NCBI GenBank assembly: GCA_001839685.1
Contig: MLAK01000591.1
Coordinates: 1 to 64,000 of the forward strand
From: Tritrichomonas foetus
Taxonomy: Eukaryota > Parabasalia > Tritrichomonadida > Tritrichomonadidae
Length of the DNA stretch: 64,000 nt
Direction of reading: 5' to 3'
Below are positions 8,458-54,794 of this stretch, piece by piece (position 1 is the first letter of the stretch; the number at the start of each line of letters is the position of its first letter). Position numbers and translations under genes: made by a program. The notes under the pieces are model-generated. The model did not search any database. It saw only the letters and a list, made by a program, of their open reading frames with translations, and was not told the DNA's origin.

Positions 8458-10565
8458 CAGAAGGTTTATCATTTAGTCAAGCTGAACGATTTCTGGCTAA
8501 ATTAAATATAGCCACAATCTCAGAAAAGCATTATTTACGTTTAACTAAAAAAGTGGATGAGATATTAAATGATTTAACAAATGAATCATTGAGAAATGCT
8601 CGCTCTATGATGAATGAAAAGTCAAGCATTTCATTTGATTCTGCTTGGTCTCACCCAAGAAATGCACATGAATGCTTTGGTGCTTTCATAGATTTAGCAA
8701 CACAAAAGATAATTGACTATTATGTAGTGTCATTAAAAAGCCATTGGTCTATTGGAAATTGCGAAGGATTTCCCCAGTCACTTGAATCAGAAATTTTAAA
8801 TAAATTAAGTTCTAAATGGTGTTCATTATCAAAAATAGATAGTATCACAATGGATAACGATAACAATGTAGGTGGAATATTTACTAAGTTGAACTGGAAA
8901 ATTATTCAATTTATAGATGTAAATCACGCATATAAGCAATTTAAAAACCGTTTTCTTAAATTTAATTTCGACAATAAAAATATATTTTCAGATATAATCA
9001 AGTCTTTTTTAAAATTCGTTAAAGTCCTGATGCTTGACAGAGATTTACCTCTGATAACAAAAAAAGAACAATTTTTTAATATTACAGAACATTTTTCGAA
9101 TAACCATCAGAAATGTTTGCATGAGAATTTAATTGATTTTAAAATTCCAGCTTTTGCGAAAAATATTAATTTAAAAAATAGACTTGATACGTTTCTTGAT
9201 GATAATGTTATTATCTTTGAAAAAACAGAACCCCATAAGAATACTCAATGTAATGAAAGTTTACATTCACTCAAAATCAAACTGGCTCCCAAAAATAAAT
9301 CTTGGAAAATGACTTTTTCAACCAGAATGAAAATTACGGTTTTACTTTGGAATGAGGGGCACAAGTTTTATTACCAGCTCATGAACAATTTTAATATCGC
9401 AGAATTAAATGATCATAATAAACAAATTATCGATAAATATATACTGCGAAAAACCCTAAACAAAGAAAAGCAACAAACAGAAAAATATATACAACAAAAA
9501 AACAAAACTAGAAATCTTAGGAGACAATCAGGGAGGAAAGAAGGTGATTACAAATTAAAGAAAGTTTTCACTCCAATAAATATAGAATTTCGGGAAACTG
9601 ATGTCCTTCATTCAGATTTCAAAGAAGAAGAAGAAACAAACGATTTAGATTTTCGTGAAACCAACTTCAATTCACCTGAAGAAGATTCTTTTTTTAAGGA
9701 CATCAATGCAGATGATTGGTTTTCTATGACCATTTTCGATTTGTTTAACTTTGGGAAACTATTTCTTGATCAAGCATTACTAGGAAATATTTTTCGTTTA
9801 TATAATATAGCTAATAATTGTTACATAAACAGTGGAATTCAATTATTAATGAGTTCAGAGCATTTTCGAACTAAGCTATTATTATTCAATAAAGAAGACG
9901 ATTTGTTATTATTTTTGAAAAAATGTACAAAAGACATCGTTAACAAAAGAGATATTGATTATATAATAAATTATTATATTAATAATTCTACACAAACAAT
10001 CAAGTACAATGAAAAAGGAGATACCTCTGCGTTTTTACTATTTTTATTGAACGACTTAGAAGAAAAATATAATATGATAGCAAATATGACTGGATTTATT
10101 GCTAAATCCATTTTATGCTCACAATGTGGCGCTCGAAATGAAGTGTTGGAAAATAACCTACTTTACTCAATTTCATGCTCTGAATTACAAAATATTGAAG
10201 ATTGTTGTAAAAATGAACCTATAAATGATAGTATTTGTCAGTTCTGTAGAAATACTCCTTTAATGATGACTCAAATTGTGTCCATCAACATTCTCTTAAT
10301 TATTCATTTAACTGATTCGAATTATGAACAAATTTTTCACATCAAAGAAACACTTCATATAAATCAAAAATTATATTCAATGAAATCGATAGTTTATTTC
10401 CGAGATTTACCAGATTCTGGGCATTATTTCGATGTAGTACGCCAAAATAATAAGTGGTTCTTGATTTCAGATTCATTTATCAATCAAATAAAAAGTCCTT
10501 TTGAGATTGACAAAAAATCACGGCCAGAAATTTTATTATATGAGCAAATTATGCAGGATCTGTAA
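8394..10565 (+). CDS. Kolobok-like DDE transposase fused to USP-like protease
   Basis: The frame is open from the A-run onward (NLLHKICNEKVDPLQF...), with no ATG needed if it is the continuation of the upstream segment. Numbering here starts from the GTG at 8553. Transposase core: D29 in FDSAWSHPR, D101 in TMDNDN, E235 in CNESLHS, with the EG and DVNHAYKQ blocks between. After a Lys/Glu-rich linker (about 300-400) comes a USP fold. The Cys box is NIANNCYINS with C423, the zinc knuckle is C522/C525/C562/C565, the His box is DSGHYFDVV with H624, and D640 lies in KWFLISDS. The protease triad and zinc ligands are therefore all intact. Known precedents are Ulp1-type proteases in some Mutator-like elements; a USP fused to a Kolobok transposase is, to my knowledge, unusual. 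It may deubiquitinate the transposase or a host factor (inference). Confidence 0.75.
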   Translation, partial: NLLHKICNEKVDPLQFTLSCLTEGLSFSQAERFLAKLNIATISEKHYLRLTKKVDEILNDLTNESLRNARSMMNEKSSISFDSAWSHPRNAHECFGAFIDLATQKIIDYYVVSLKSHWSIGNCEGFPQSLESEILNKLSSKWCSLSKIDSITMDNDNNVGGIFTKLNWKIIQFIDVNHAYKQFKNRFLKFNFDNKNIFSDIIKSFLKFVKVLMLDRDLPLITKKEQFFNITEHFSNNHQKCLHENLIDFKIPAFAKNINLKNRLDTFLDDNVIIFEKTEPHKNTQCNESLHSLKIKLAPKNKSWKMTFSTRMKITVLLWNEGHKFYYQLMNNFNIAELNDHNKQIIDKYILRKTLNKEKQQTEKYIQQKNKTRNLRRQSGRKEGDYKLKKVFTPINIEFRETDVLHSDFKEEEETNDLDFRETNFNSPEEDSFFKDINADDWFSMTIFDLFNFGKLFLDQALLGNIFRLYNIANNCYINSGIQLLMSSEHFRTKLLLFNKEDDLLLFLKKCTKDIVNKRDIDYIINYYINNSTQTIKYNEKGDTSAFLLFLLNDLEEKYNMIANMTGFIAKSILCSQCGARNEVLENNLLYSISCSELQNIEDCCKNEPINDSICQFCRNTPLMMTQIVSINILLIIHLTDSNYEQIFHIKETLHINQKLYSMKSIVYFRDLPDSGHYFDVVRQNNKWFLISDSFINQIKSPFEIDKKSRPEILLYEQIMQDL

Positions 10566-13616: not shown

Positions 13617-14174
13617 ATGGGAGAAGAATCAGAGCAAGTTACAATTTTCAGCTTTCTAGAGGACGACATTCGCTCATGGGTTGAGGAATATATCAAAGAA
13701 ACAGATGTTGTTTCAACCGGCGAGACAACTCATCCAATCGATGTTTTATTCGCAATTATCGCACACTTTTATCCACCTTTGAAAAACGAAACTATTCGTA
13801 GAAGTACTGACAAAAATCGCATCAGATCAAAACTAAAGAAAATCCGCAATTTCTTCAACGCATATAATATTCCCGCACCTGAGCATTGGCTCCTATTCGT
13901 TGAAAACGACGAGACAGACAAGGAATTCCTCCAGAACATCAATTTAGTTTTTGTCTCCTTCCAGAATCATATCCTTAAGAAGGAATTGACAGAATTGACC
14001 AATCAACAGCTTGCCGTTTTGCAGGAAATGTTGAACATTCAAGAAGGAAACCGTTTCTATCGAAACAAGCTTCAAACAATCTTGAATTATGTTCAGAAAA
14101 ACCCAGAATTACCGTTTAGCAGTGAAATCATTCAATTCATAACAACAGAACCAGAGTGTTTCAAATCTGAGTGA
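13617..14174 (+). CDS. Hypothetical all-helical protein
   Basis: A 185-aa soluble, acidic protein. Sequence pattern: FSFLEDDIRSWVEEYIKET, then PIDVLFAIIAHFYPPLKN, KLKKIRNFFNAYNIPAPEHWLLF and a C-terminal helical half (TNQQLAVLQEMLNI). The hydrophobic spacing in the first half is faintly like a calponin-homology or similar small helical domain, but no signature is convincing. The ATG is well placed, and the codon use and length support a real gene. It converges on the ankyrin gene downstream. Confidence 0.7.
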   Translation: MGEESEQVTIFSFLEDDIRSWVEEYIKETDVVSTGETTHPIDVLFAIIAHFYPPLKNETIRRSTDKNRIRSKLKKIRNFFNAYNIPAPEHWLLFVENDETDKEFLQNINLVFVSFQNHILKKELTELTNQQLAVLQEMLNIQEGNRFYRNKLQTILNYVQKNPELPFSSEIIQFITTEPECFKSE

Positions 14175-28342: not shown

Positions 28343-30670
28343 ATGAATCGGGGCGGCGCGAACCACATTGACCCGAGCCCCGCAATCAGAAAAGAGCTAA
28401 GGGGGAAAATCAAATCATTATGTGACATAAAACCAGAAGCGCGAACAAAAAAAGTAGTACTAGTCGACAAAAAATGGCATGACAAATTAATCAGATGGTT
28501 GAGCGATTCGCATGAAGAACAGCCTGGCCAAATTCCTTTCAAATCATTGTATTCTGCGGGCAAAATCAAAAGTGAAATGAAACTAGGCGTTGATTATGAG
28601 ATCGTTGAAGGAAATGTTTGGAATAAACTATCGCAAGTTTTTGGACCAGCCAATTCTCCACAAAAAATTGAAGGCTCGCTTACAACTAATCCAATGAACG
28701 GAGAACCTATCGTATTATTGAATCCAATTTCTTTCAAAATTTTCACACCTCGAACAGGCGGATCTGTTGGGATGACTCCAATTTCTCAAGATTGTGATCC
28801 AAATTGGACAATCGCTGATTTAAAACAGCAGATTTCTCGAATATCAAATTACGATCCATCTACTTTTTATTTGGTCCAACACTTTGGAACAGCAAAAATG
28901 CAAGATGCAATGACTTTAAAAGATGCTATGAAAAGATACAAAGCCGATCTGGATATAAAAATGGATAATCCAAAATTGTTACCACCCATTCAAAATGCCA
29001 GGCCACCATCAGTTCCAAAAAGTAAAATACCATCACGAATTGGAAATATGAATAAAATAATTAAAAAAGCGCAAGAACCCTCAATAATTGAACCAAAAAC
29101 TGGAAATAAAGGAATGTCACGAAAAAATTCACTATTAAACGATAAAAATTTACATGCTTTACCATCCAATAAAGAAAATATTACGCATTCACCTAGAAAT
29201 TTATCATCAAGAAGCCGACGATCAAATGAAAGTGAATCTTCAATCAGTTCTTCAAATAAAATTTCAAGAGTTGGATCTAAAAATAATTCAAATTCAAGTT
29301 CAAATAGAAACATCGACAATAGTATTGGATATAGTAGACTAGCACCAGGAGCGAGGCAGAAGAGTGTTTCCACTCGACCAAGAATGAATCGGAATAATTC
29401 TAATAATTCAAGCTCGAATAATTATAATGAAATCGACACTTTTAATAGCTCTGGTAAATTAAATAACTCTGGAAGATTAAATGATTCTGGAAGACTTAAT
29501 AATTTGAGTAAGTATGATGATTCTGGTAAATTTGATAGTGATTTAAGTAGTTCTGGTCATTTAACAGGAAGCTTTCCTGGAAGTGGAAATAGTACTGGCA
29601 ATATATCAAATTCAATTATGAGAACAACTTCAGAGCCAATCAAATCACAACCAATTGATTATTTATCATGTACAACAAAATTCCCAAAGCCAGTTGGTTT
29701 AAACAACCTTGGAAACACATGTTTCTTTAATGCTGCTGTCCAATGTCTCACTCGTGTTCAACCATTAACTGATTTCATACTTTCATCGAAATTTGAAAGT
29801 GCTATTAATCCAAGGAATCCAAAATCATCTAAAGGAAAAATTGCTTGTGCATATCGTGAATACTTGGAATTAATGTGCAGAAGTGGATCTGGTGCTCGTG
29901 ATCCAAGTAATCTTCGAAAAGCAATTGTTAGTAAATTCAAAAGATTTGCTAATTTTAGCCAACATGATTCACAAGAACTTCTTGGATCACTTCTTGATGG
30001 TCTTCATGAAGACTTAAATCAATCTGCTGCAGCTAAAGGCAACGATCCTCCTATTGAGATCCCCAAAGAACCGGACTCATGGGATGTTCACATTTCTAGG
30101 AATTCTTCTCCTATAGTTGATCTCTTTCATGGAAAACTATACTCAAGTATTTCATGTCCTGAATGTGGTAGAGTTGAATCTGTCCATGATCCATTTATGT
30201 TTTTAGAACTAGAAATCCCACGAAAGTTTTCTGCAGTAAAGTTAAATGATTGTCTAAAATCATTTTCACAATGTGATGTACTTGATGCAGATAATAAATG
30301 GAAATGTGAAGGTTGTAAAAATATGGTTTGTGCAACAAAAGAAATGGGAATTGACCAATGTGCTGAAATTTTAATCATTCATTTGAAAAGATTCTCAGGT
30401 GAAGGTTATTTTGCATCAAAAATTGATACTAATGTTGATTATCCTGACACTTTGGATACAAACGTGTTCACTAGAAAAAAGAGTGGAGTTTATAGACTCA
30501 TAGGTGCAGTTTTTCATAGTGGTGGTCTGGGAGGCGGACATTATACGGCTGCAGCAATTGATCCATCGTCAGGAAAATGGTACAATTTCAACGATTCAAT
30601 GGCATCACCAATTGACAGTACTAGTGCGCATAGTGGTAGAGCGTATATTTTGTTTTATCAAAGAAAATAG
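28343..30670 (+). CDS. Ubiquitin-specific protease with DUSP domain (USP15/UBP12-like)
   Basis: A 775-aa protein. A DUSP-like domain lies at about residues 35-95 (WHDKLIRWLSDSHEEQPGQIPF...VEGNVWNKLSQVFG). A ubiquitin-like segment (about 130-195, WTIADLKQQISRISNYDPSTFYLVQ) follows, then a 200-residue Ser/Asn-rich linker. The peptidase C19 domain runs from about 450 to the end. Catalytic residues are C460 in NNLGNTCFFN, H733 in GGGHYTAA and D751 in WYNFNDS. Zinc-knuckle cysteines are CPEC and CEGC. The compact catalytic domain lacks the long insert seen in USP4/USP15. It removes ubiquitin from substrates; targets unknown. Confidence 0.93.
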   Translation: MNRGGANHIDPSPAIRKELRGKIKSLCDIKPEARTKKVVLVDKKWHDKLIRWLSDSHEEQPGQIPFKSLYSAGKIKSEMKLGVDYEIVEGNVWNKLSQVFGPANSPQKIEGSLTTNPMNGEPIVLLNPISFKIFTPRTGGSVGMTPISQDCDPNWTIADLKQQISRISNYDPSTFYLVQHFGTAKMQDAMTLKDAMKRYKADLDIKMDNPKLLPPIQNARPPSVPKSKIPSRIGNMNKIIKKAQEPSIIEPKTGNKGMSRKNSLLNDKNLHALPSNKENITHSPRNLSSRSRRSNESESSISSSNKISRVGSKNNSNSSSNRNIDNSIGYSRLAPGARQKSVSTRPRMNRNNSNNSSSNNYNEIDTFNSSGKLNNSGRLNDSGRLNNLSKYDDSGKFDSDLSSSGHLTGSFPGSGNSTGNISNSIMRTTSEPIKSQPIDYLSCTTKFPKPVGLNNLGNTCFFNAAVQCLTRVQPLTDFILSSKFESAINPRNPKSSKGKIACAYREYLELMCRSGSGARDPSNLRKAIVSKFKRFANFSQHDSQELLGSLLDGLHEDLNQSAAAKGNDPPIEIPKEPDSWDVHISRNSSPIVDLFHGKLYSSISCPECGRVESVHDPFMFLELEIPRKFSAVKLNDCLKSFSQCDVLDADNKWKCEGCKNMVCATKEMGIDQCAEILIIHLKRFSGEGYFASKIDTNVDYPDTLDTNVFTRKKSGVYRLIGAVFHSGGLGGGHYTAAAIDPSSGKWYNFNDSMASPIDSTSAHSGRAYILFYQRK

Positions 30671-33834: not shown

Positions 33835-36800
33835 TTACATAAAGAATTTCAATGAGTCTTCAAATTCTGGGAAGAACTCATTCTTCTGTTTAGGTTTGGG
33901 TTCTTTTTTATTTTTCGTTGTAGATTTTTTTTCACTACCCAAAAAGACTTTCAAAGTGCTGTTTTGGTTAGCTTCATAAGAAATTATTGTATTATCATTT
34001 AACTGCTTCGAATTAATGAAAAAGAGAGAATTTTCAATAATTTCTTTGCTTGCAAATTCTATTTCTCCCAATCGTATTTTAATATGTGTTAAATTTTCTC
34101 CCATTACAATTCGGAGCAAAAACATATGAATTGGTGTTTTCATATCAATCTTTTTATTGGATTTATAAACGCTTGTCGTAAGTAAGAAGGAATTTGATCC
34201 AAGATATATTTGATCTTGAGGAATTTTTTCTACACGGAAAACTGTAGATTCATCGAAATAATCAGACTGATCAGGAACTTTGAGTATTTCATCATTAATG
34301 TTTAGTAAAACTCTAATATGACCATCTAATACATTTAATTGATTAACATGTTGGAGAATGCATGAAATGTCTTCATCAAGTCTCATTGGGATGCGAATTC
34401 GTTTTACAAAGTGAATAAGCGAGTCATAAACATCAATAACTCGAAATACCATCATTTTCAGCTGCTTTTCAGTATATCCCTGAATAACATCAAAAAATAA
34501 ACGAAGAGATTTATAAGCCGACACTTTTCTAAATTCTGAAACAAACAGATTTTTCAAAGTGATATCATTTCTTAAGTGATAGGGCATAATTTCAGGCAGA
34601 TCAGAATTAGTTTGCCTTCTAAAAACTTGAACTACTGTATTTGTCGTGGCATTTGTATTCAAATTAATGTTTGAATGTTGTTGTTCATTGAGTGCAAACA
34701 GAATAAGTTGAGGTAGTTCAGTAACAATCATGGTTTCAGGTGCAACACAAGTAACTACGACAGTATTTGGTTCAGTCACTTGACAAAAATCAATAGCTAG
34801 TTGACATTTTTGTCTCTCAAGATATTCTTCCGCATTTTTATCACCATAGGGTCTCAACATTGAATAGTAATTAATACAAATATGATGTTGAGTACAACTT
34901 TCAATCTTAAATGATGTTGGCATAAATGATTGATCATAGGGTTCAAATAAAATAGAAGATGAATCATTAATTTGATAATATAAAAGGCTTTGTTCAATAT
35001 CTGTGATTTTTTTGGAAAATCCAAGACCATCATAATAAACGTTTACTGGTAGATCATTTGTTCCACCTAAAATGCCGTAAATCACAGGAAGTAACTGAGA
35101 AACTGGTTGATAAACATTAGCTAGAGTTGATCCAAGGAATTGGACCTGTGGTGTAGCACGACTGAAGAAGAACTTCAAAAAGACAACAATGATATTTTTT
35201 TTACTGTTAATTAAACTTATCATTGGTTTCATATAATCAGTTACAAATTGAATGAAATAGGTATCATCTTTTGGAATTTTCCCTGGGCCATTTGGAAGGA
35301 GAAGAGTTGGCATATATAAAGTTGAGACTTTCCAAATTAGAATCCCATCAACTGGACGATCCAGAAAAGTAGAAACATCATTATATAAATCATAAATTGT
35401 AGATTTCTCTGGAATTTCGATTTTTGGCGGGAAATTAATAAAATCATAATTATCTGCACCCATTAAAACCATTTGTCGATAACAATCTTCAGTAAATAAA
35501 GAAATTGACCGACATGGTATTTCTTTTGGTGCTTGAGTTTTAAAAGGAATTGCATTCTTTAAAAGTTCAGAAACATGGGTTGGTATTGATACTTCTGAAA
35601 AAATTTCAAATAGCTTAATATTTTGCACATATACCAGCATATACGCACTCGATGAAGTGCCGCCATAATTATCACTCACTGCATTTTTTTCTGAACATTG
35701 AGTTACATTTGAATCATTAAATTCGTACCATGATTCTTCAGGCGTTGGTTTTATATAAGCAAGATAGTGACCATTAGTAGTTGATCCACAATGCACCAAA
35801 ACTGAACATAATGTATACTGTGCATTAGGAGTGGCTGAAAAAGCAGTTAAATCAAGATTGGAAGGAAATTCAAATCTATCATTCACTTTTTCTTTATTTC
35901 TTGTTTTACTGTTATATATAAAACGTTGTAGATGAATGTTTAAGATCGGTGGAAGGCTAACAAAATAGGTTTTAACAAAAGCATCTTGTTTTCCCATTGG
36001 TGTCATATATTGATTATTCCCTTCGAGAATTTGGGGCTCAGTAAATTGTTTAAAAGAAGTATACAAATCTAAACAACCACGTACTTGCATTTGTAAATCA
36101 TCAAAATCTTCATAATTTTGAGTCGAGTAATTAATATTCTTACATTGGATTAATTTACACCATTTTCCATAAAATAATGTTTTGTAATTTTGTTTGATCG
36201 GTGATTCTTCAATAACCATATCTATTAATTTATTATAAAATTCTTGCGCGTCGTGTTGTTGAAATGTTCGAGCATCATTCCAGCCAAAAGCTTGAGTCAA
36301 ACCTCTTGTTGAAACTGGTTTGTTTGAGCTTTGTAAAAACCCAAATAATCGTTGAAGTTCGGTGGTTATTCGGCCAGGTGATTGAGTAATATAAATATTA
36401 TTTCGAAACACTGGCAAGTGAAAAAGTGATTGTAAAATACTATTCATATAACATGTCGAACCTTGATTGAATATTCCCGCATATTTCAAAGGCTTCAGAA
36501 TTTTAGGAATAGAATTTGGCGAAAGCAAAGGTAAACCTATGGACTCAAATTGTGCATCACTAAATCGAATATCAATAACTAAATTTCCATCCCAACTATA
36601 GAATTCCAAATCAGATGAAGGAATCAAAGTTTCTATGATTGATTGCTGATCTGAAGACTTCAATAAAAATGGCGAATATATTGTAATCGTTTTCAGCGGG
36701 TCTTGCGAATGCAATATCAGCTCGATGAAAAAAACTTGGTTGATTATGCTTTTTTCACGCGATTCTATACTTATTGTAAGGTATTGCGGCTGTGGCTGTT

Positions 36801-36978
36801 GAAATCGGAACTGATAAGTTGTGGAATCGAATTGTATGCTAAATCGTTTAGGAGCTGTCGTCTGGTAGTTTTCTATTGTCCAACGAGCGGATATGCAGTT
36901 ACTGTTAGAATTGAATGCTAATGGTGGTGGTGTTGCTGGAGGTGCAAAACTCGGGAAATCGCCAAAAAAATCAAACAT
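33835..36978 (-). CDS. USP7-like ubiquitin-specific protease (MATH-USP-UBLs)
   Basis: A 1047-aa protein, similar in length to human USP7 (1102). A MATH/TRAF-like domain lies at about residues 30-140 (ARWTIENYQT...FYSWDGNLVIDIRF). The C19 catalytic domain is about 165-455, with C176 in NQGSTCYMNS, QQHDAQEFYNKLID, LNIHLQRFIYN, H404 in TTNGHYLAYIK and D422 in WYEFNDS. The long C-terminal region matches the USP7 tandem ubiquitin-like array in layout (VYQPVSQLLPVIY, PEIMPYHLRNDITLKNLF). It ends in a Lys-rich segment. Likely nuclear, controlling stability of regulators. Confidence 0.93.
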   Translation of the reverse strand: MFDFFGDFPSFAPPATPPPLAFNSNSNCISARWTIENYQTTAPKRFSIQFDSTTYQFRFQQPQPQYLTISIESREKSIINQVFFIELILHSQDPLKTITIYSPFLLKSSDQQSIIETLIPSSDLEFYSWDGNLVIDIRFSDAQFESIGLPLLSPNSIPKILKPLKYAGIFNQGSTCYMNSILQSLFHLPVFRNNIYITQSPGRITTELQRLFGFLQSSNKPVSTRGLTQAFGWNDARTFQQHDAQEFYNKLIDMVIEESPIKQNYKTLFYGKWCKLIQCKNINYSTQNYEDFDDLQMQVRGCLDLYTSFKQFTEPQILEGNNQYMTPMGKQDAFVKTYFVSLPPILNIHLQRFIYNSKTRNKEKVNDRFEFPSNLDLTAFSATPNAQYTLCSVLVHCGSTTNGHYLAYIKPTPEESWYEFNDSNVTQCSEKNAVSDNYGGTSSSAYMLVYVQNIKLFEIFSEVSIPTHVSELLKNAIPFKTQAPKEIPCRSISLFTEDCYRQMVLMGADNYDFINFPPKIEIPEKSTIYDLYNDVSTFLDRPVDGILIWKVSTLYMPTLLLPNGPGKIPKDDTYFIQFVTDYMKPMISLINSKKNIIVVFLKFFFSRATPQVQFLGSTLANVYQPVSQLLPVIYGILGGTNDLPVNVYYDGLGFSKKITDIEQSLLYYQINDSSSILFEPYDQSFMPTSFKIESCTQHHICINYYSMLRPYGDKNAEEYLERQKCQLAIDFCQVTEPNTVVVTCVAPETMIVTELPQLILFALNEQQHSNINLNTNATTNTVVQVFRRQTNSDLPEIMPYHLRNDITLKNLFVSEFRKVSAYKSLRLFFDVIQGYTEKQLKMMVFRVIDVYDSLIHFVKRIRIPMRLDEDISCILQHVNQLNVLDGHIRVLLNINDEILKVPDQSDYFDESTVFRVEKIPQDQIYLGSNSFLLTTSVYKSNKKIDMKTPIHMFLLRIVMGENLTHIKIRLGEIEFASKEIIENSLFFINSKQLNDNTIISYEANQNSTLKVFLGSEKKSTTKNKKEPKPKQKNEFFPEFEDSLKFFM

Positions 36979-41001: not shown

Positions 41002-42747
41002 TTATTGTGGTCGTTGGTTTTCAACTTGAACGAGTTCTTCAATGATATTCAAATTTCTTTGTAATGCCGTCAAAATCTTTTCTTCAAGCGCAGGAAAAAC
41101 TTTAACACCTGCTTGAAAGACAGGCATAACAATCACTCTGAAATGAGTATTAATGAATGATGCCATTGAAGAATTCAATCTTCGATCCATTGGTGCAGCA
41201 ACTTTAAACCCAAGTCGTCTTTCAGTATCCCTTTGAAGGTATTGTTCATCACGCATTAAGTCATACCAGTAACCAGATACTTCCCATGGCCTAATAGCAA
41301 ATGCCAAATCACTCATAAGTACAATTAATGCAAGTGCATCAAATCTATCGACTTTATTATTCAAATCAAGTTTGCGTGATGCTAATTTAGTTATGAACTT
41401 TTGAAGTTTCTTATAGTCTGTCTTTAAAATAGAATGAATCATGATTTGCCTTGAAGTAAGTAATTCGGCTTCTTGATTTGAAAAAGTAAAACAATCTTGA
41501 AGTAAATGTGATCCAACTGAACAAGAATTATTTTCAAGAATTGAACGATCATTATAAGTCATTGATAGATTTGAACTTGTTCGAACTTGAAACATATTAT
41601 TGCATCCAGGATGATCAATATCATGTAGTAATGCTGAGAGTGCAAGTGTGGCGATTTCAAAGTTTTCCAAAATGTTAGAATTCGCTTTATTTAAAATATC
41701 ATTAAATGCGATAATAAATTGAACACTTTCGCAGGCTCTTCGAAAATTATGGAATGGGTTTCCACGGAACTTTTCAACACATTTCTTTATGAAATATTCA
41801 ACTTCGCCTGGTTTTGAGTTAACATCTACACCAACTCGAGCAGCAGTGAGTAAATCATGGCATAAATTCATTAAAACTTTTTCATTGATTGACCACACAT
41901 TAAAATCGAGAGAAAACATGGCGTCACCTAAATTTAATGGCTGTAAAGAAGGAACCATTGGTGCTGGTGCAGCCCTGTGCGATCGAATCGCATTTACTGC
42001 TGTTGGAATAATCACTTTTGGTTGAGCTTTATTACTGACACCGAATTGAGTGGCAAAAAAGTCCTGCATTTTATCAGGAATCGCTGGACGCGCAACTGAT
42101 GTGATTTCACCATTCTCAAACCCTTTGAGATTGACTATGACAGCTTGGATGGAAGCTACTGCTGCCGGTTGGACTCCACCACTTACTAAAACAGCTTCAA
42201 GTGATTTCACTATTTCATTCAATGGCGTATTAAATGAATCAGAAAATGTTTGCTTTAATTCAGCGATTCGACGCGATATAACAGTTGATTCAACAATTTG
42301 ATGTTGAATTTTAGCAGCTGCTGCATTTTGTCTTCTTTTGATCCAAACGTTGGCATAGATATTTTTCAGAACCTGTGGCGACAACGGTTTAATCATGTAA
42401 TCGTCTGCACCTTTTGAAAGACAATCAAATACAATTTCGTATTGATCGTTGGAAGACATCATAACGATTGGGATTTGAGCAAATTTTGGATCTGATCGAG
42501 CGGCTGATAAAAACTGAGGTCCGTTCATGACTGGCATCATTACATCGCTTAAAATCAAATCGATTTTAACACCACTGTTTAAAACATCGAGTGCTTCTTG
42601 GCCATTTTTCGCAACGAGAACCTGATAACCATCCTTCTCAAGGGATTTTTGAACAACGCTGAGCTGCATTGGATCATCGTCAACAGCAAGGATTTGAAGA
42701 TCGTCTCGAGTGAATGGGAGAGAAATATTTGAAGAATCTTCAGTCAT
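41002..42747 (-). CDS. Response regulator-phosphodiesterase fusion (RegA-like)
   Basis: A 581-aa protein. An N-terminal receiver domain (about 15-135) has the acidic pocket at D23-D25, phosphoacceptor D68 in LILSDVMMP, S98 and K120 in YMIKPL. A linker with helical segments follows. A class I cyclic-nucleotide phosphodiesterase domain spans about 290-570: FHNFRRA (H333), LLHDIDHPGCNN (H375, D376, H379, N383), YNDRSILEN and the D480 of LMSDLA. The layout equals Dictyostelium RegA, where phosphorylation of the receiver activates cAMP hydrolysis. The second metal-binding His of HNxxH is Arg337 here, which may weaken or abolish hydrolysis. No histidine kinase lies in the window. Confidence 0.9.
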   Translation of the reverse strand: MTEDSSNISLPFTRDDLQILAVDDDPMQLSVVQKSLEKDGYQVLVAKNGQEALDVLNSGVKIDLILSDVMMPVMNGPQFLSAARSDPKFAQIPIVMMSSNDQYEIVFDCLSKGADDYMIKPLSPQVLKNIYANVWIKRRQNAAAAKIQHQIVESTVISRRIAELKQTFSDSFNTPLNEIVKSLEAVLVSGGVQPAAVASIQAVIVNLKGFENGEITSVARPAIPDKMQDFFATQFGVSNKAQPKVIIPTAVNAIRSHRAAPAPMVPSLQPLNLGDAMFSLDFNVWSINEKVLMNLCHDLLTAARVGVDVNSKPGEVEYFIKKCVEKFRGNPFHNFRRACESVQFIIAFNDILNKANSNILENFEIATLALSALLHDIDHPGCNNMFQVRTSSNLSMTYNDRSILENNSCSVGSHLLQDCFTFSNQEAELLTSRQIMIHSILKTDYKKLQKFITKLASRKLDLNNKVDRFDALALIVLMSDLAFAIRPWEVSGYWYDLMRDEQYLQRDTERRLGFKVAAPMDRRLNSSMASFINTHFRVIVMPVFQAGVKVFPALEEKILTALQRNLNIIEELVQVENQRPQ

Positions 42748-44996: not shown

Positions 44997-45144
44997 AATT
45001 ATGATTAACTAAAAAAGACTTTTCTAATAAAAATATGAATTCATGAATTTTTTGTAGATTACGATTTTATTACTTAATTGAGTGGTTTTAATTCTTAACT
45101 AATTCTAACTCATGTAAAAGTAATGGTATTGAGAGGCATTATAT

Positions 45145-45336
45145 TCATTGGTTTATTTCCTCCGAAGATGCAGTTGATCCACTTATTGAATGATCATGAG
45201 CCCCATCATCAGCAGTTTTGAATTGATGCAAAAGTGAAGTAACTCCTTTAGAATACATTTCATTAGATTTGTAATTTGTATATATTCTGTCATCTTCATT
45301 CCAATCTTTTTCTTCACGTAATTGACTCTCTTCTTT
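45145..45336 (-). pseudogene. Decayed third copy of collar-domain gene
   Basis: The minus-strand frame reads EEKDWNEDDRIYTNYKSNEM followed by SKGVTSLLHQFKTADDGAHD and HSISGSTAS before a stop. It aligns with the 391-aa paralogue at REDRCYTSSDLTPQYTHKTS then HLHHFLTNTKGNHSH and TISGRTKMAGGN. The final strand-forming PPYIKVYMWVRK segment is lost, and upstream the frame breaks at a stop. A hydrophobic stretch upstream (IFIVIILIGISF, toward 45.58 kb) may belong to the same relic. It shows that the collar-domain family has expanded and decayed locally. Confidence 0.5.
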
Positions 45337-45632
45337 TCAATTAATTCACATTCATTATATTTGATATCCATCTCTCGAGAGAATAATGTTGATCTTTCGT
45401 GAATAAGATTTCCAGTAACTAAAATAGTTAAATTTCCTATTAATAGTGAAATATGTCAATATTCCAGCAATAACTAATGCTATATATCAATTTGTCTACG
45501 GGGGAAATGAATATATGAATGAATTGAAAATGAAATACCAATTAGGATTATTACTATGAATATAGGAGTACATCCAAATGAATAGGTACAAAAAATGTTG
45601 ACTTTTAAGGATTTTGTTTTAATTATTATAAC

Positions 45633-46562
45633 TTATTTTATTCTCGTCCACACGAACACTTTAATGTATGGTGGTATCAAATTAAATCTTTTATTTCCAC
45701 CTGTTTCTTCGGTATTTCCTTGAACTTTATGTTGATGACCATCAACTCGATTTGTTTTAAATATATGTGTATGCATCCAATTGAATATTGGTCCATTCTG
45801 GTTGATACCAGTATCCACTCTTATAAAATTATCATTGCCAGCCACTGTACCAACTTTTTCCACATCCTTGAGTCGAAAATCACAATACCCCTCATGATTA
45901 TGCTCACCATCAAGTGAAGTGCATAAATTATTGATTGCATGAAAATGAGGAGGAAGTTCATCGAGTGTCAAAAGATGGGTTTCCTTGCCTCCAATTTGTA
46001 ATGACTCATTCATTGTTGAATAGTCACTAGCTGACATTAAGAAACGTCCTTGTAATGGATCCCATTTGGTACCTGGAAATAGTATCTCTGGATTGTCATT
46101 TTTTGCTGAAATGAAAAGAGAGCCAATTGGATACATTTTTTCATGTTGATCGTAAATTTCATTTTCTAATCTTGAGAATAAATAAAGAAGTGAAATGTGG
46201 CTAACATTGACATATGGAAAAAAATGAGGATTTTGAAATAATAGTCGAAGATTCGAAATTCCAAGTTTTTCTATTTTTACTTCTGACATCAATAATTTGA
46301 TTTCTTTGACTTTGTTGTGTCTCATGATAAAATTGAAGACTAAATTTTCATCAATGTTTCCAGCTCGATGAGTTATAATGTTATGCTGAATATTCAATTG
46401 GCTCTTTAATAATAATTCAACGGATTCCTCATCGTTCAAGATTTCATTCAAATTATTTGCAAGGATCGTCATTCCATGATGAACATCAGATGAATCCTTA
46501 TTCGGATTACTCTTCTTCAAGTTCTGGATGCGTGCCAAAAGTAGCTTTATTTCTCTAATCAT
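45633..46562 (-). CDS. Phage tail-collar/gp10-like C-terminal domain protein (copy 1)
   Basis: A 309-aa protein. The helical N-terminal domain (1-140) is shared with the 47.7-kb paralogue (LNIQHNIITHRAGNIDENLV, FNFIMRH) and its family is unknown. Residues 144-309 follow the T4 gp10/tail-collar C-terminal pattern: YPIGSLFISAKNDNPEILFP, GTKWDPLQGRFLMSA, the GGKETHLLTLDELPPHFHAI block, four further HxH-type sites (H206/H208, H221/H223, H264/H266, H276/H278) and a final RFNLIPPYIKVFVW. In phage fibres such HxH pairs bind metal along a trimer axis. It is head-to-head with a U-box-ubiquitin gene, only 11 bases apart. Ancestry in phages or large viruses is inferred. Confidence 0.8.
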   Translation of the reverse strand: MIREIKLLLARIQNLKKSNPNKDSSDVHHGMTILANNLNEILNDEESVELLLKSQLNIQHNIITHRAGNIDENLVFNFIMRHNKVKEIKLLMSEVKIEKLGISNLRLLFQNPHFFPYVNVSHISLLYLFSRLENEIYDQHEKMYPIGSLFISAKNDNPEILFPGTKWDPLQGRFLMSASDYSTMNESLQIGGKETHLLTLDELPPHFHAINNLCTSLDGEHNHEGYCDFRLKDVEKVGTVAGNDNFIRVDTGINQNGPIFNWMHTHIFKTNRVDGHQHKVQGNTEETGGNKRFNLIPPYIKVFVWTRIK

Positions 46563-46569
46563 TAAATGA
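46559..46569. promoter_or_regulatory. Shared bidirectional Inr-like palindrome
   Basis: TCATTAAATGA reads as TCATTAAATGA rightward and TCATTTAATGA leftward. An Inr-type motif therefore faces both genes within an 11-base intergenic space. The leftward ATG overlaps it. Confidence 0.4.
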
Positions 46570-46573
46570 AGTC

Positions 46574-47128
46574 ATGATGGACAGATATCTCGCTCTCTTT
46601 TTTTTATTGGTTTACATGAAGAATATTGTCAAAATAACTTTGATTTTATTCATTTCATTTTTTTCTTTACTTATAAGTGCTTTAATATCTGAGCTGCGAT
46701 GTCCTTTGTCTGGCAAAATAATGCATGTTCCTATGATTGCTCCTGATGGTTACACTTATGATAAAGAAAGTTTACTGAATTATCGCAAAATGTATGGAGA
46801 TATTTCCTCAACAACAGGAAATGCAATGAATTATGATGAAATACATGCAAATAATAGGGTCAAGATATTAGTCGATAAATTCAAAAACGCTCATCCAGAG
46901 TATATGACCGATGCAGAAAAGAGAGAAATGGAAAAAGGTTTCCAATTATTTGTCAGAACAGTTCAGGGAAAGATGATAGCCATTAATGGTGTTAATAATA
47001 AAATTACTATATTGGAATTGAAGAAAAAAGTTATGGATAAAGATGGTACTCCAGAAAATCAGCAAAGATTAATATTTGGTGGAAAGCAATTAGAAGATCA
47101 TTATGATACTAATGCATTATGGCCTTAA
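46574..47128 (+). CDS. Membrane-anchored U-box-ubiquitin fusion, frameshifted tail (copy 1)
   Basis: 184 aa to the first stop. A hydrophobic N-terminus (about 7-38) may anchor or target it. The U-box is at about 40-104 (ELRCPLSGKIMHVPMIAPDG then YTYDKESLLNY). A ubiquitin domain starts near F123 (FQLFVRTVQGKMIAINGV then LIFGGKQLED). Its Lys48 equivalent is K171. The frame ends early at LEDHYDTNALWP. In the +1 frame the true tail continues as HYGLKKEDTIDVSLRLKGG and a stop at 47172-47174. Removing one base near 47107-47113 restores exactly the ubiquitin spacing. So the gene is either freshly frameshifted or miscalled. The U-box would recruit an E2. Confidence 0.75.
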   Translation: MMDRYLALFFLLVYMKNIVKITLILFISFFSLLISALISELRCPLSGKIMHVPMIAPDGYTYDKESLLNYRKMYGDISSTTGNAMNYDEIHANNRVKILVDKFKNAHPEYMTDAEKREMEKGFQLFVRTVQGKMIAINGVNNKITILELKKKVMDKDGTPENQQRLIFGGKQLEDHYDTNALWP

Positions 47129-47174
47129 AAAAGAAGATACAATCGATGTAAGTTTAAGACTGAAAGGTGGTTAA

Positions 47175-47719
47175 TTTGGTATAGAAAATTAATTTTTCTG
47201 ATTTGATATCCTATTTTAGTAAATTCCTGTTCATAATATTGGACAAATCATATCTCAAATCTGAGAGACATTTTATCATGATTGTGACTATTCACCAAAG
47301 TCAAATAAAGATCAAAAATACAACATAAACTAATTGTAGTTAATGAAGGGGAGACAAGATGAGTGAACATGGCAGAAGTATGAAACAGCAAGATCGGTGT
47401 TAATGAATCGTTTCCTCCAATGGACAAATCACTTCACATTTGAATCATATTTCAAAATCTTTTTCTAATCTCAAAAACCATTTATTAGAAATATTGAACT
47501 CAACATTAAAACTATTATCTAAATAATTCAGAAATAATGTTTTCTTAAATATTTTTATAATTCATGACATGGAAAACATATACTTTATATAATAAATAAT
47601 GAGAATATGAATTGACAATATTTGGAAGCATATTCAGCTCATTTGCCTGTTTTATTACTCATCAATCGAAGAATTTGCATATTTAATAAGAAAAAATTAG
47701 ATGTGATTTATATAAAATC
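47175..47719. other. Gene-free convergent spacer
   Basis: AT-rich 545 bases between the two cassette copies; nothing recognised. Confidence 0.35.
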
Positions 47720-48895
47720 CTACTCTTTTCGAACCCACATATAAACTTTAATGTATGGTGGTAAAATATTGAATTCTTTATTTCCACCTGCCATTTTCGT
47801 CCTTCCAGATATTGTATGACTGTGATTTCCTTTTGTGTTTGTAAGAAAATGATGCAAATGAGATGTTTTATGGGTATATTGAGGTGTTAAATCAGAAGAT
47901 GTGTAACATCTATCTTCTCGTTTTTCATCAAAATCTATTTCATTTGCCCTCATGAATCTATGTTTGTTTCCAGGTGAAGTTATCCAGTATTTTAGTGAAA
48001 GAGGTTGCTGTTCTGTATATCCTTCATGCTGATGTTCTCCATCAGAAGATGTTTTTAAGTTTAATAGATGTTGATGCGCTGGTATTTCTTCTGGTGATAA
48101 TACATGTGTTTTGCTACCACCTTCCTGGTATGATTCATTCATGTTTTGATAATCTTGCGCTGACATTAAGAAACGGTCTTTAATGGGTTTCCATTTTGTC
48201 CCCTCAAAGATTTTTACAGGATTAATGTTTACAGTAGAAATAAAAATGAATCCAATGGGATACCATGCATTTATATCCAATTTTGATTTCATTTGAATAA
48301 TATTTTCTTTCATTTTGGAGATTTGAGTTATATCTTGATTTATTTTCATTTGTTCCTCATATCGAGTATTACGATAATCATTAAATGTGCTATTCATTTG
48401 ATTTTGGATTTCTTTGATTCGAGTTATTTCTTGAGATAATTTGAAAATCTTTTTTTGGTACTGAGCTTGAATTTGTTCCAATTTATGGTTAAATTCTGAC
48501 TCGAGTTCTCTTTTTTGAGAAGCAAAGAGAGAAAGAGATATTTTATTAATTTTCACATATGGAGATAATCGAGGATCCTCAGTTAGACAGAGAAAATTCT
48601 TGGGAGAAAGTCGTTCAAATTTTAAATCAGAAATCAATAATAGTGCTTCTTCTTCATCATGTTTCATAATGAACTCAAAAATGAGATTTTCATCTTCATT
48701 TAATGGACGATGTGATATAATATTGTGCTGAATATTTAAATCCAGTTCGAATAATTTTTGATGTAATTCTTCATTTTCTAAAACATCTTTTAAATCACAG
48801 CAAACCTTTTTTATTGCTTTATAAACGCTCTTACCAACATTGTTCCTTTGGAAATCTTTTAAATTTTGTAAGTGAAGCAATAAATCCGCATGCAT
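47720..48895 (-). CDS. Phage tail-collar/gp10-like C-terminal domain protein (copy 2)
   Basis: A 391-aa paralogue of the 45.6-kb gene. The same helical N-terminal domain (1-125, LNIQHNIISHRPLNEDENLI then FEFIMKHDEEEALLL) is followed by an inserted coiled coil at about 127-205 that copy 1 lacks. The collar-like domain is 212-391: WYPIGFIFISTVNINPVKIF, EGTKWKPIKDRFLMSAQDY, THVLSPEEIPAHQHLL, further HxH sites (H274/H276, H288/H290, H346/H348, H358/H360) and EFNILPPYIKVYMWVRK. The coiled coil next to a normally trimeric collar domain suggests a trimeric fibre-like protein. No signal peptide, so probably intracellular. It is head-to-head with the second U-box-ubiquitin gene. Confidence 0.82.
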   Translation of the reverse strand: MHADLLLHLQNLKDFQRNNVGKSVYKAIKKVCCDLKDVLENEELHQKLFELDLNIQHNIISHRPLNEDENLIFEFIMKHDEEEALLLISDLKFERLSPKNFLCLTEDPRLSPYVKINKISLSLFASQKRELESEFNHKLEQIQAQYQKKIFKLSQEITRIKEIQNQMNSTFNDYRNTRYEEQMKINQDITQISKMKENIIQMKSKLDINAWYPIGFIFISTVNINPVKIFEGTKWKPIKDRFLMSAQDYQNMNESYQEGGSKTHVLSPEEIPAHQHLLNLKTSSDGEHQHEGYTEQQPLSLKYWITSPGNKHRFMRANEIDFDEKREDRCYTSSDLTPQYTHKTSHLHHFLTNTKGNHSHTISGRTKMAGGNKEFNILPPYIKVYMWVRKE

Positions 48896-49039
48896 ATGAT
48901 CAAAACTAAATTAAGTGAAAAATCTTTGTCAAAAAAGCAACTCATATAATTGTCAAGAATGTTGCCATGAAAAAATATTAGATTTTGCCAGAAAGCATTC
49001 AATAATTACATTACATCACTTATTTGAATTAGCTTGAAA

Positions 49040-49504
49040 ATGACATACGATGACTTTGATGAAAATGATCTGTATTGTCCAATCTCCGGGGGAATAATGG
49101 AAGAACCTGTAATAGCCAATGATGGTATCACTTATGATCGAAGAAGTCTTGAGATGTTGAGAGATCAGAATGGTGGGGTATTACCTAACGGAACAAAAAT
49201 TGATTGGGCTATAATAAAACCCTATGGAAGACTAAAAAAACAGATATTAGCACAAAGGCCCTTTTCTATATTTTTAAAGACACTATTAGGGAAAGTTATC
49301 ATTATCAGTGACCTCTGCACCAGTACCAAAATCCACCAATTAAAATGTAAGATACAAAATAAAGAAGGTATTCCTCCTGATCAACAAAGATTAATTTTTG
49401 GTTCTAGTCAATTAGAAGACCAAAATAAATTAGGAGACTATTCAATCCGAAAGAATTCTACTATTCATTTAGCTCTCCGCCTTCGTGGTGGATTCCATTT
49501 TTAA
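49040..49504 (+). CDS. U-box-ubiquitin fusion with GG-FHF precursor-like end (copy 2)
   Basis: A 154-aa protein from the ATG at 49040 (TTG AAA precede it). The U-box is at about 11-72 ([20 protein letters not shown] then [10 protein letters not shown]). A ubiquitin domain follows at about 75-151: [36 protein letters not shown] and [11 protein letters not shown]. Three residues, FHF, follow the GG, as in ubiquitin precursors. Lys equivalents 6, 11, 27, 29, 33 and 63 are kept, but Lys48 is Ser. Cleavage after GG by a deubiquitinase would expose a conjugatable C-terminus on an E3-like module (inference). It lacks the N-terminal hydrophobic segment of copy 1. TCACTT lies about 20 bases upstream. 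Confidence 0.88.

Positions 49505-49582: not shown

Positions 49583-49624
<42 letters not shown>
49583..49624. repeat. Poly-A tract (42 nt)
   Basis: Uninterrupted A run about 80 bases after the U-box-ubiquitin stop. Confidence 0.9.
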
Positions 49625-52511: not shown

Positions 52512-54794
52512 ATGTTTCTTTTCTCGATTCTTTTTGCCTTATCCCTTTCTCGCCAAGAGAATGTTCGTTTACCCCCTCGTAAGGTTATATATTCCACCAA
52601 AGGAGACAATGGAATTGCCTGTGACATTTGCAAACAGGCTGTCAAATATATAGCCGACGCTTTAGCTGACAAAAAGGTTGAAGAAGAAATAATTGAAGCA
52701 ATTGACGAACTTTGCAAACAATATCCATCACCGTATGATACAGAATGTCTTACAAAAGTCGCCATCTATGTCCCGTTAATAATTTCCTGGATCGAACAAG
52801 GTATTGAGCTTATCGACATTTGCACAATGACTCATTTGTGCTCTACAGTAGCTGGACAGCCACGTCCCGCTATGCGTCCAGCTATTACCAAATATTCACC
52901 AAATGGATTAAGTTGCGATATGTGCACCAAAGCTGTTGAATATATCGGAAAACTTTTGGAAACGCAAATCGTCGAATCAGAAATCGCCAGACTCGTTAAA
53001 CAATATTGCACCACATTCGAAACTCCATACTCCAGTCTTTGTAACGCTATTGTAGAATCCTCTATTCCATTGATTATCAGCTGGATTGAAGCCGGACTTG
53101 TCGCCAGCGACATCTGCACAAAAATCGGATTTTGCGCATCTAACGAATCCCTACCAATCAATCACAAATATACAGACGCTGCAGTTCGAAGAGTTGTTAC
53201 TGCTGCATTTCCAAAGAACGATAACGGTATCGGCTGCTTACTCTGCAACAGAATTGTTGAATATCTCGATAGCGTTCTTGATGATCCTCGCTTCTCTGGT
53301 TCAGTTGAGCGTCTCCTCGACCAATTCTGTGACAAACTTCCAGCCGCCTATGCGGCAGGGTGCCATGTCCTTGTCGATAATTTCATCCCAATACTCTCCC
53401 AGTGGATCGAGCAAGGAATTGACTCTCTCCACATCTGCGAGAAAATTGGATTGTGTGATTCGGAAACGGTTAAGCGTATTGAACACAAAAAATTGGCTCC
53501 ATCAAATCAAAAAGCTTCAACACCAACCAAAGTCCAAATTCCAAACTGGCCAAAGAACGATAACGGTCTAGGATGCCTTCTTTGCAATGAATTTGTTGCA
53601 AAGATTGATGAACTCCTCAACGATGAAAGATTCGATGGATCGCTCGAACGCTACCTCGATAAATTCTGCGATAATCTTCCAGTTGTCTATGCAGCTGGCT
53701 GCCATGCCCTTGTTGACAGCATGATTCCAGTCATTACCACCTTGATTGATGAAGAATTTGATAAACTTGAAATTTGCATCAAACTTGGATTATGCGAAAA
53801 TACATCAACTGCAATTAGTGCAGTTAAAGCCCGCCTTCCACGCGCAGCTGTAGCCAAAAAATCTGTAGAAAAACTATATGACAGCGATACCTGTACAATT
53901 TGCACAATCACAATAAACTTCATCGACACAAAGATGAAAGACGAACAAGTTCAAGACGAAATTATTGAAGCTGTTTATGGATTTTGTGGCACACTTTCAT
54001 TCATTTATGATCCAATTTGTAAAATGATCGCATCAACCTATATTCCACTCATCATTAGACTCATCACAGATGGTGTTGAAACACTTGATATCTGTAACAA
54101 ACTTGGATTCTGCACAAGCTCCGTTGTCGCCGAATTTAAGGCCAACTACAGAAAGCCACTTTACCTTCCAACAAAAACACTGAAAATTAACAAACCATCA
54201 CCAAATGGTCTCTGTGAAACTTGTAAAGAAACCATCCAAATGATTGAAGACCTTCTTGAAGACAAAAAAGTCGAAGAAGAAATTATCTCAGTTTTGAAGC
54301 AATTTTGTGATACACTTCCTGAGGAATTAGTTGCTAGCTGTGATTCAATTGCTGATCAATATGTTCCACTTGTCATTAAGCTTATCGAATCAGGATTAGA
54401 AACATTAGATATCTGTGGAAAAATTGGCTTCTGTTCAACCAACCAAATATCATCTCAGAAAGCTTCTAAACGAGTTCCTATAAGAAAATATGTGAATCGT
54501 AAATCACTTCCACCATTAAAGAAGTATACATTTCCACAGAAGTATGATTCAAAGGTTGTTTGTGAACTTTGTAACCAGGTCTTCAAATATGTCGAAGAAC
54601 TGCTCAATGATCATCACGTCCAAGAAGAAATTGCCAATCAAGTGATGAAATTATGCGACTTTGTTCCACCACCAGAGCTCCTCCAGGGCTACTGCAAGGA
54701 CCTCGTAAGGGAGTACGTCCCTCTCGGTGTCCAGTACATCGCGGCTGGAATCGAAGCGGCCGATGTGTGCAAAGCGATCGGTTTTTGCGAATAA
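52512..54794 (+). CDS. Secreted protein with seven saposin-B domains
   Basis: A 760-aa protein. The signal peptide MFLFSILFALSLS precedes seven consecutive saposin-type domains of about 77 residues, each with the six-Cys pattern C-x2-C...C...C...C...C (for example CDICKQAVKYI ... ELCKQYPSPYDTEC ... DICTMTHLC). Domains begin near residues 38, 130, 235, 350, 460, 565 and 682, separated by 15-35-residue basic or Pro-rich linkers that could be protease sites. Domains 3 and 4 are the closest pair, sharing YAAGCH. Saposin-like proteins bind lipids and include sphingolipid activators and the pore-forming amoebapore group. A precursor processed in lysosomes or the secretory route is likely. Whether any unit is pore-forming cannot be told here. 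The last domain is GC-richer. Confidence 0.92.
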   Translation: MFLFSILFALSLSRQENVRLPPRKVIYSTKGDNGIACDICKQAVKYIADALADKKVEEEIIEAIDELCKQYPSPYDTECLTKVAIYVPLIISWIEQGIELIDICTMTHLCSTVAGQPRPAMRPAITKYSPNGLSCDMCTKAVEYIGKLLETQIVESEIARLVKQYCTTFETPYSSLCNAIVESSIPLIISWIEAGLVASDICTKIGFCASNESLPINHKYTDAAVRRVVTAAFPKNDNGIGCLLCNRIVEYLDSVLDDPRFSGSVERLLDQFCDKLPAAYAAGCHVLVDNFIPILSQWIEQGIDSLHICEKIGLCDSETVKRIEHKKLAPSNQKASTPTKVQIPNWPKNDNGLGCLLCNEFVAKIDELLNDERFDGSLERYLDKFCDNLPVVYAAGCHALVDSMIPVITTLIDEEFDKLEICIKLGLCENTSTAISAVKARLPRAAVAKKSVEKLYDSDTCTICTITINFIDTKMKDEQVQDEIIEAVYGFCGTLSFIYDPICKMIASTYIPLIIRLITDGVETLDICNKLGFCTSSVVAEFKANYRKPLYLPTKTLKINKPSPNGLCETCKETIQMIEDLLEDKKVEEEIISVLKQFCDTLPEELVASCDSIADQYVPLVIKLIESGLETLDICGKIGFCSTNQISSQKASKRVPIRKYVNRKSLPPLKKYTFPQKYDSKVVCELCNQVFKYVEELLNDHHVQEEIANQVMKLCDFVPPPELLQGYCKDLVREYVPLGVQYIAAGIEAADVCKAIGFCE

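Follow-up and report, generated by a model that had tools for sequence, protein, structure and literature searches.

Two gene pairs of Tritrichomonas foetus, lying side by side in a window of 64,000 nucleotides (the whole stretch of DNA analyzed), each place a gene for a protein with a phage-type collar domain (colA, colB) head to head with a gene for a U-box joined to ubiquitin (ubA, ubB). The best explanation, to which we give a probability of roughly 0.4, is that this cassette represents a lineage-specific two-gene unit of a trichomonad that passed through one ancient duplication, with the collar protein serving as an adaptor and the U-box-ubiquitin protein as its partner. This arrangement suggests that a captured phage part has been built into the protein-tagging system of a eukaryote.

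Organization of the cluster

The features are as follows, with positions counted from the first nucleotide of the window.

45134..45306, minus strand: collar relic; a Gp10_C C-terminus split into two pieces that lie in different frames, ~57 codons in total
45633..46562, minus strand: colA, 309 aa; BACK-like helical N-terminus (~1-126), Gp10_C tail-fibre domain (142-308)
46563..46573: spacer of pair A, 11 bp between start codons
46574..47128, plus strand: ubA, 184 aa; hydrophobic N-terminus, U-box (40-107), first two-thirds of ubiquitin (125-176), then a frame break
47118..47171, plus strand: remainder of the ubA ubiquitin, out of frame, with Gly-Gly end (tblastn with ubB)
47720..48895, minus strand: colB, 391 aa; BACK-like N-terminus (1-119), long single helix (121-205), Gp10_C (209-389)
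48896..49039: divergent start region of pair B, 144 bp between start codons
49040..49504, plus strand: ubB, 154 aa; U-box (11-45, HMM), full ubiquitin (77-149), LRLRGG end plus a three-residue tail

The coordinates of the open reading frames make both pair A (colA/ubA) and pair B (colB/ubB) divergent. The collar paralogs are 33% identical over 387 columns (E 1e-60) and the U-box-ubiquitin paralogs 35% over 137 columns (E 7e-23; both by blastp with composition correction off). In the collar alignment, most of colB's long helix has no counterpart in colA. A sequence-only reading of this DNA had described two divergent pairs of this composition. HMM matches, orientation, and paralogy all agree with that description, except that ubA is not intact. 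The same reading had placed a decayed third collar copy next to the pairs, and this copy is confirmed: a tblastn search with colB, covering the window and three short loci, aligns 45172-45306 at 42% identity and 45134-45163 at 70% (E 1.45e-4).

Both start regions carry Inr-like motifs of the form TCA[CT][AT], known from T. vaginalis. In pair A, they lie at or adjoining the spacer and put A+1 at -5 for colA and at -13 for ubA, the latter falling inside colA. In pair B, the corresponding positions are -21 (colB) and -22 (ubB).

A phage-type domain in a eukaryotic chromosome

Each collar protein scores 68 bits against Gp10_C (Pfam PF21939), for which the cut-off is 27, and colA also matches the tail protein family phrog_5717 of PHROG (E 7.2e-21). 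There are four H-x-H motifs per collar at matching places (residues 274, 288, 346, and 358 of colB). Motifs of this type bind metal. When colA and colB are aligned with 19 IMG/VR copies (21 rows), three elements are invariant: Y-P-x-G at the start, the first of the H-x-H motifs, and W-x-R at the end. The second H-x-H and one histidine of the fourth are kept in at least 90% of the rows, and the third is not conserved. The collars resemble the Gp10_C proteins of tailed phages (PF21939; phrog_5717, phrog_6465) in exceeding the Pfam cut-off and in shared motifs, whereas here the domain sits on a different N-terminus and in a eukaryotic chromosome amid ordinary genes.

Viral contigs scanned with an alignment of the Gp10_C domain yielded 242 relatives, whereas the full-length collar alignment found none there, and one IMG/VR pattern scan returned no relative of the collar N-terminus. 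All four IMG/VR neighborhoods examined resemble tailed phages, with endolysin genes near three of the four copies. In an annotated gut phage, holin and endolysin genes come after the Gp10_C gene. Apart from the proteins of the window itself, two collar searches of a 5.8-billion protein set recovered a single phage tail fibre (P0002). No phage fibre is among the four matches of a PDB sequence search with colB. In the AlphaFold model of the colB monomer, the Gp10_C part is poorly modeled, and the phage-fibre fold is absent from a list of fold matches that covers mostly residues 1-157.

The Pfam, PHROG, and IMG/VR comparisons support a viral origin of the collar domain, from tailed phages. Two trees, of 23 and 41 rows, group colA with colB (100/99) on a long stem. 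The larger combines the two collars with 19 of 80 IMG/VR loci, 18 of 70 bacterial loci, P0002, and a single gut phage. Neither tree resolves the donor group; bootstrap values in the larger one are unsettled, and the composition of colA and colB departs from that of the other rows.

The surroundings are those of a eukaryotic chromosome. A Pfam scan of 29 of the 30 window ORFs of at least 180 aa (all but 13617-14174) matched neighbors to B56, Ras, UCH-type proteases, TBP, Brix, CD39, phosphodiesterase, saposins, DENN, and NOT, and revealed no capsid, polymerase, or integrase families. No tRNA or Rfam matches occur in the window. Because the neighbors with Pfam matches are ordinary eukaryotic genes and the GC content of all four cassette genes is inside the range of the remaining genes, contamination and a mobile element were rejected as explanations.

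The collar N-terminus and the BACK module

The N-termini of the collars may be related to BACK. In a single fold search, BACK was the best match of the colB N-terminus, at a score below the level that the tool trusts where folds are helical. Two matches of long helices to a different part of the model had nearly the same Z (7.3 and 7.0). The long helix of colB (residues 121-205) is modeled with pLDDT >90 over most of its length. Profile-profile similarity to BACK is weak, with an hhalign probability of 15% for the collar N-terminus; colA alone has a score of 16.9 against BACK, which is under the best decoys. A hit of low significance (E 0.067) had led to the choice of BACK for this comparison. 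With Pfam, the whole collars match neither BACK nor BTB at E 0.1, and at E 10 the N-termini of colA and colB match no Pfam family and stay short of the BACK HMM cut-off. The BACK alignment starts at colB residue 23, which leaves no space for a preceding BTB.

If the similarity is real, then the collars would be weakly akin at their N-termini to KLHL-type Cul3 adaptors and to the trichomonad proteins that join BACK to a discoidin (F5/8C) head, for which the T. foetus genome has 94 matching places. Unlike in KLHL-type adaptors, Pfam finds no BTB in the collars, and it does not detect their putative BACK. The C-terminal head also differs: in place of F5/8C or Kelch there is a phage domain, which in colB follows the long helix. 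Two candidate collar relatives were set aside. One (C784) is a BACK-F5/8C protein, and the other (C385) overlaps a 1091-codon open frame in a different reading frame.

The U-box-ubiquitin proteins

Both domains of both proteins exceed their Pfam cut-offs, as in U-box E3 ligases (PF04564) and in ubiquitin fusions such as ubiquitin-S27a, -L40, and polyubiquitin. The U-box scores 34.3 bits in ubA and 27.1 bits in ubB (cut-off 21.4), and ubiquitin scores 47.2 and 69.9 bits, respectively. By the HMM cut-off, both are assigned to the U-box E3 family and are predicted ligases. The ubB U-box covers only profile positions 5-39 of 73. A hydrophobic N-terminal stretch is found in ubA and is missing from ubB.

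The ubB ubiquitin spans the full profile (positions 1-72 of 72) and retains R42, I44, R72, R74, G75, and G76, residues whose roles include contact with E1 and E2. It carries the changes K48 to S, G47 to S, and V70 to A. Its full fold, C-terminal Gly-Gly, and contact residues predict a ubiquitin of the conjugatable type, which ubA does not have: in frame, the ubA ubiquitin covers only profile positions 1-51 of 72. The remainder at 47118-47171 aligns with ubB at 50% over 18 aa, a match that is weak alone (E 0.08). The frame break may be a sequencing error; programmed frameshifting, considered on a reading of the frames, is not favored.

Like T. foetus polyubiquitin, which ends in GGF, ubB has a C-terminal Gly-Gly and a short tail. 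It differs from polyubiquitin, ubiquitin-S27a, and ubiquitin-L40 in that ubiquitin is C-terminal to the U-box and K48 is lost. Since there is no Gly-Gly site between the two domains, the E3 would remain attached. To tie a U-box for good to a conjugatable ubiquitin would be an unusual ligase design, in which the E3, if active, would travel with the tag.

Linkage of the two gene types

In the T. foetus genome, no U-box-ubiquitin gene was found away from a collar gene; the two that were found both adjoin one. A U-box HMM marks 17 places in the genome, and a ubiquitin match coincides at two of them, both in the cluster. Whole-genome searches with each U-box half at E 10 returned the half itself, the other half, C536, and C180. 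None of the 14 plus-strand ubiquitin loci read has a U-box beside it, apart from ubB. With ubB residues 1-78 as query, the 5.8-billion protein set yielded a single candidate and no hit; this set seems to be without trichomonad relatives, so a negative result there carries little weight for other trichomonads. In the open-licence literature covered, there is no mention of trichomonad genes for collar-domain or U-box-ubiquitin proteins.

Further collar relics are present on contigs C202, C142, and C362, the one on C142 consisting of two pieces whose order does not fit a single gene. Stretches of 9.5 to 9.9 kb around these three relics contain no U-box-ubiquitin (tblastn, E ≤1). Matches to ubA near relics, at E 0.19 (L046) and E 0.77 (L047), involve mainly the hydrophobic N-terminus and were taken as chance. 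The L046 match also reaches the U-box start, inside a CDC50-type ORF.

The repeated co-occurrence noted from the sequence is thus real inside the cluster and found nowhere else in this genome. A simple tandem duplication confined to this place had been named as the finding that would count against it; the cluster is indeed the sole site found in the T. foetus genome, but its copies diverged anciently and have kept their arrangement, so that this objection applies by half.

Possible functions and alternative explanations

Under the two-gene explanation, the collar protein would act in the cytosol as a scaffold or adaptor, probably in trimeric form. At its N-terminus it would carry a divergent BACK-like module, similar to those joined to discoidin heads in T. 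foetus, and the phage tip would act as its recognition or trimerizing head. The U-box would recruit a charged E2, and ubiquitin of the ubB type, with its E1/E2 residues, processable Gly-Gly tail, and no K48, would be conjugated to a target or prime the ligase. The divergent start regions could keep both genes in step. Candidate targets are phage, bacterial, or self proteins. It is doubtful, if conceivable, that a receptor-binding phage tip has become the recognition head of a eukaryotic ubiquitin-ligase machinery, in which a trimeric protein of BACK-like, coiled-coil, and phage-tip parts presents targets to a partner chain bearing both E3 and ubiquitin, so that phage or bacterial material, or proteins formerly bound by the tip, are tagged cell-autonomously. 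Ubiquitin adaptors are known with Kelch, MATH, or similar heads; if our explanation is true, then a phage fibre domain acquired by a eukaryote would feed into the ubiquitin system. That the two proteins act together, as was first proposed from their linkage, is made somewhat more plausible by the BACK-like collar N-terminus. Counting against this explanation are the broken ubA, the partnerless relics elsewhere, the lack of Pfam BACK or BTB, the weak profile and fold scores, and the poor model of the Gp10_C part.

It is quite possible that the genes are passive neighbors, adjacent by chance and duplicated together, that work or decay independently, the collar being a domesticated scaffold and the U-box-ubiquitin dispensable. 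The confinement of the pairing to this cluster, the break in ubA beside an open colA, and the three relics with no partner within 9.5 to 9.9 kb would all fit. However, the divergent arrangement has outlasted divergence to 33-35% identity, both U-box-ubiquitins found adjoin a collar gene, and there is a weak likeness between the N-terminus of the collars and a module of ubiquitin adaptors. Such decay could also mean a declining phage-derived family, with most copies dead and the open ones surviving without present function. This is unlikely: four relic places (45134-45306, C202, C142, and C362) and the broken ubA agree with it, but open frames of 309 and 391 codons that keep four H-x-H motifs at 33% identity would suggest long purifying selection in preference to neutral survival. 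Most improbable is a surface or secreted fibre that binds bacteria, as the domain does in phages, either for feeding on them or for entry sensing. Although Gp10_C relatives form the ends of phage tail proteins and can have holin or endolysin genes nearby, a hydrophobic stretch resembling a signal is absent from both collars (the highest means over 19 residues are 1.0 at residue 114 and 1.2 at residue 212), and the BACK-like N-terminus and the U-box-ubiquitin neighbor point to the cytosol. Entry sensing, which the sequence-only reading had offered as one role, is not favored because the collars are not strongly hydrophobic near the N-terminus.

Comparison with other systems

The bacterial Bil system attaches a ubiquitin-like protein to the central tail fibre of phages (PMC12948488). 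The likeness is one of theme only, a ubiquitin-type modification meeting a phage tail-fibre protein. In contrast to Bil, the cassette has no E1 or E2, combines a eukaryotic U-box with ubiquitin, and belongs to a cell that itself encodes the tail-fibre domain. Pfam finds no Bil-type E1, E2, or deubiquitinase beside the ubiquitin-like genes of the cassette. Virophages likewise possess a collar-type fibre domain, in the eukaryotic virus world; examples are the collar-domain proteins OLV18/19 (PMC3671162) and the tail proteins of DSLV2, for which PF07484 and not PF21939 is named (PMC12724248). The collars differ from these in family (PF21939, versus PF07484 in DSLV2), in a window whose 29 scanned ORFs show no capsid, polymerase, or integrase family, and in the tailed-phage-like neighborhoods of the four IMG/VR copies read. 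Three UCH-type genes lie in the window, about 10 to 38 kb from the cassette.

Organization of the gene cluster

The assembly searched comprises 63.7 Mb in 1064 contigs, and the window lies in C201, a contig of 95 kb. Its GC content of 31% fits T. foetus, for which 30.75% is given (PMC11415386). The ubiquitin-L40 protein of this genome points to a trichomonad: its best full-length PDB match, at 252 bits, is chain 5xy3_m of the Trichomonas vaginalis large ribosomal subunit, ahead of the next full-length chain at 197 bits. The cluster contains two divergent gene pairs, each joining a collar protein (colA or colB) to a U-box–ubiquitin fusion (ubA or ubB), and a gene fragment:

45134-45306, minus strand: collar gene scrap, leftmost of the cluster
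45633-46562, minus strand: colA, Gp10_C match
46574-47128, plus strand: ubA, U-box and partial ubiquitin
47720-48895, minus strand: colB, Gp10_C match
49040-49504, plus strand: ubB, U-box and ubiquitin

The flanking genes with Pfam matches are ordinary eukaryotic genes, and the gene pair is real and odd, not an artefact. The two pairs descend from an old co-duplication. The collar proteins are now 33% identical over 387 columns, and the fusions 35% over 137 columns.

Elsewhere in the window, a two-component receiver domain is fused to a cyclic-nucleotide phosphodiesterase (41002-42747, minus strand; Response_reg 86 bits, PDEase_I 161 bits), and a 760-aa protein has seven SapB_1 (saposin-like) stretches (52512-54794, plus strand). 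A run of 42 A residues (49583-49624) lies shortly 3′ of ubB.

U-box–ubiquitin fusions

Both fusions match U-box and ubiquitin in Pfam, the ubiquitin match of ubA being partial. ubA is a broken copy: its ubiquitin frame stops about two thirds through, with the Gly-Gly tail encoded in a different frame. ubB is intact, and its ubiquitin is identical to the genome's own in 47 of 75 aligned columns. It retains K6, K11, K27, K29, K33, K63, R42, I44, R72, R74, and both glycines; K48 and G47 are replaced by S and V70 by A. Three extra residues follow Gly-Gly in ubB, and one in this genome's polyubiquitin. In both fusion ubiquitins one extra residue is inserted after position 15 or 16, which fits a single fusion origin predating the duplication.

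Three ubiquitin carboxyl-terminal hydrolase genes occur within ∼28 kb (8607-10565, plus; 28343-30670, plus; 33835-36978, minus), ∼10 to 38 kb from the U-box–ubiquitin genes.

Phage kinship of the collar domain

The collar domain is related to phage proteins. Gp10_C scores 68 bits in both colA and colB (cut-off 27), and the PHROGs families that they match are phage tail families (E 7e-21 and 2e-23). When 50,697 phage records were searched by tblastn, colB matched 312 and colA 337, with identity below 60% throughout. Tail fibre, tail, or baseplate annotation is present in 29 of the 30 colB matches listed, and the annotations of the 15 colA matches listed are more varied (tail, baseplate, antireceptor, minor head, hypothetical). 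Pattern and tblastn searches of IMG/VR recovered 242 relatives. Four of the loci were examined further, through ten of their proteins: nine match phage families in PHROGs, tail and endolysin included, and one matches none. GTDB genomes contain 70 collar-domain loci, assumed to be prophages; most belong to records named as Bacilli, Clostridia, other Bacillota or Mycoplasmatota, and a few to other groups.

colA and colB group together at 100/99 on a long stem in two trees (23 and 41 rows), neither of which resolves a donor. The simplest reading is that the domain was acquired once, long ago, from a tailed phage and that the gene was then duplicated inside the protist. The domain may instead have arrived through a eukaryotic virus, since virophages also have collar-type domains according to passages in two reports (PMC3671162, PMC12724248), although nothing in the present data points to that route.

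Linkage across the genome

Beyond colA and colB, collar relatives comprise the adjoining scrap and pieces on three other contigs:

C202:88612-89127: relic with four stops
C142: two separate pieces, one C-terminal and one N-terminal; the relics lie at 1876-2139 and 7419-7676 of L047 (the stretch C142:1-9900), both minus strand
C362: N-terminal piece with a stop, also matched by DNA (73%)

The order of the C142 pieces is wrong for a single gene, so they are probably two dead copies. Around the relics on these contigs, tblastn found no U-box–ubiquitin in the 9.5- to 9.9-kb stretches searched.

Genome-wide, Gp10_C occurs at three places (two above cut-off) and the U-box at 17 (15 above cut-off). 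A search with ubB listed 32 places, and a U-box coincides only on C201; on C249, ubiquitin and U-box matches are ∼80 kb apart. Each U-box half matches the other half and, more weakly, C536 and C180. Both fusions found (2/2) adjoin a collar gene. All these counts, and the lack of partners beside the relics, are lower bounds, because only the best candidates were scored and a decayed 150-aa gene could escape. The repeated co-occurrence proposed in the sequence-only reading holds only inside one old tandem duplication. Passive linkage, in which neighbors were duplicated together, is nearly as likely as functional pairing.

A possible two-gene unit

That the two proteins function together, as had been proposed, is plausible but unproven, and the BACK-like N-terminus of the collar proteins adds new support. 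The architecture would resemble that of ubiquitin adaptors, with a phage-derived head. colB, which has no hydrophobic N-terminus, would be cytosolic; it could trimerize through its helix and phage tip, where four H-x-H motifs are retained, and may act as an adaptor or scaffold. ubB would be a ligase subunit carrying its own attached ubiquitin. Transcription of both might begin in the region between their divergent starts, each of which has an Inr-like motif nearby. Such a motif, of the T. vaginalis type, lies ≤25 nt from the start in 4/4 cluster genes versus 5/21 other ORFs.

BACK-like proteins form a large trichomonad family, with 94 places in the whole genome. The members read were that on contig C784 and three longer ones, and several also have F5/8C.
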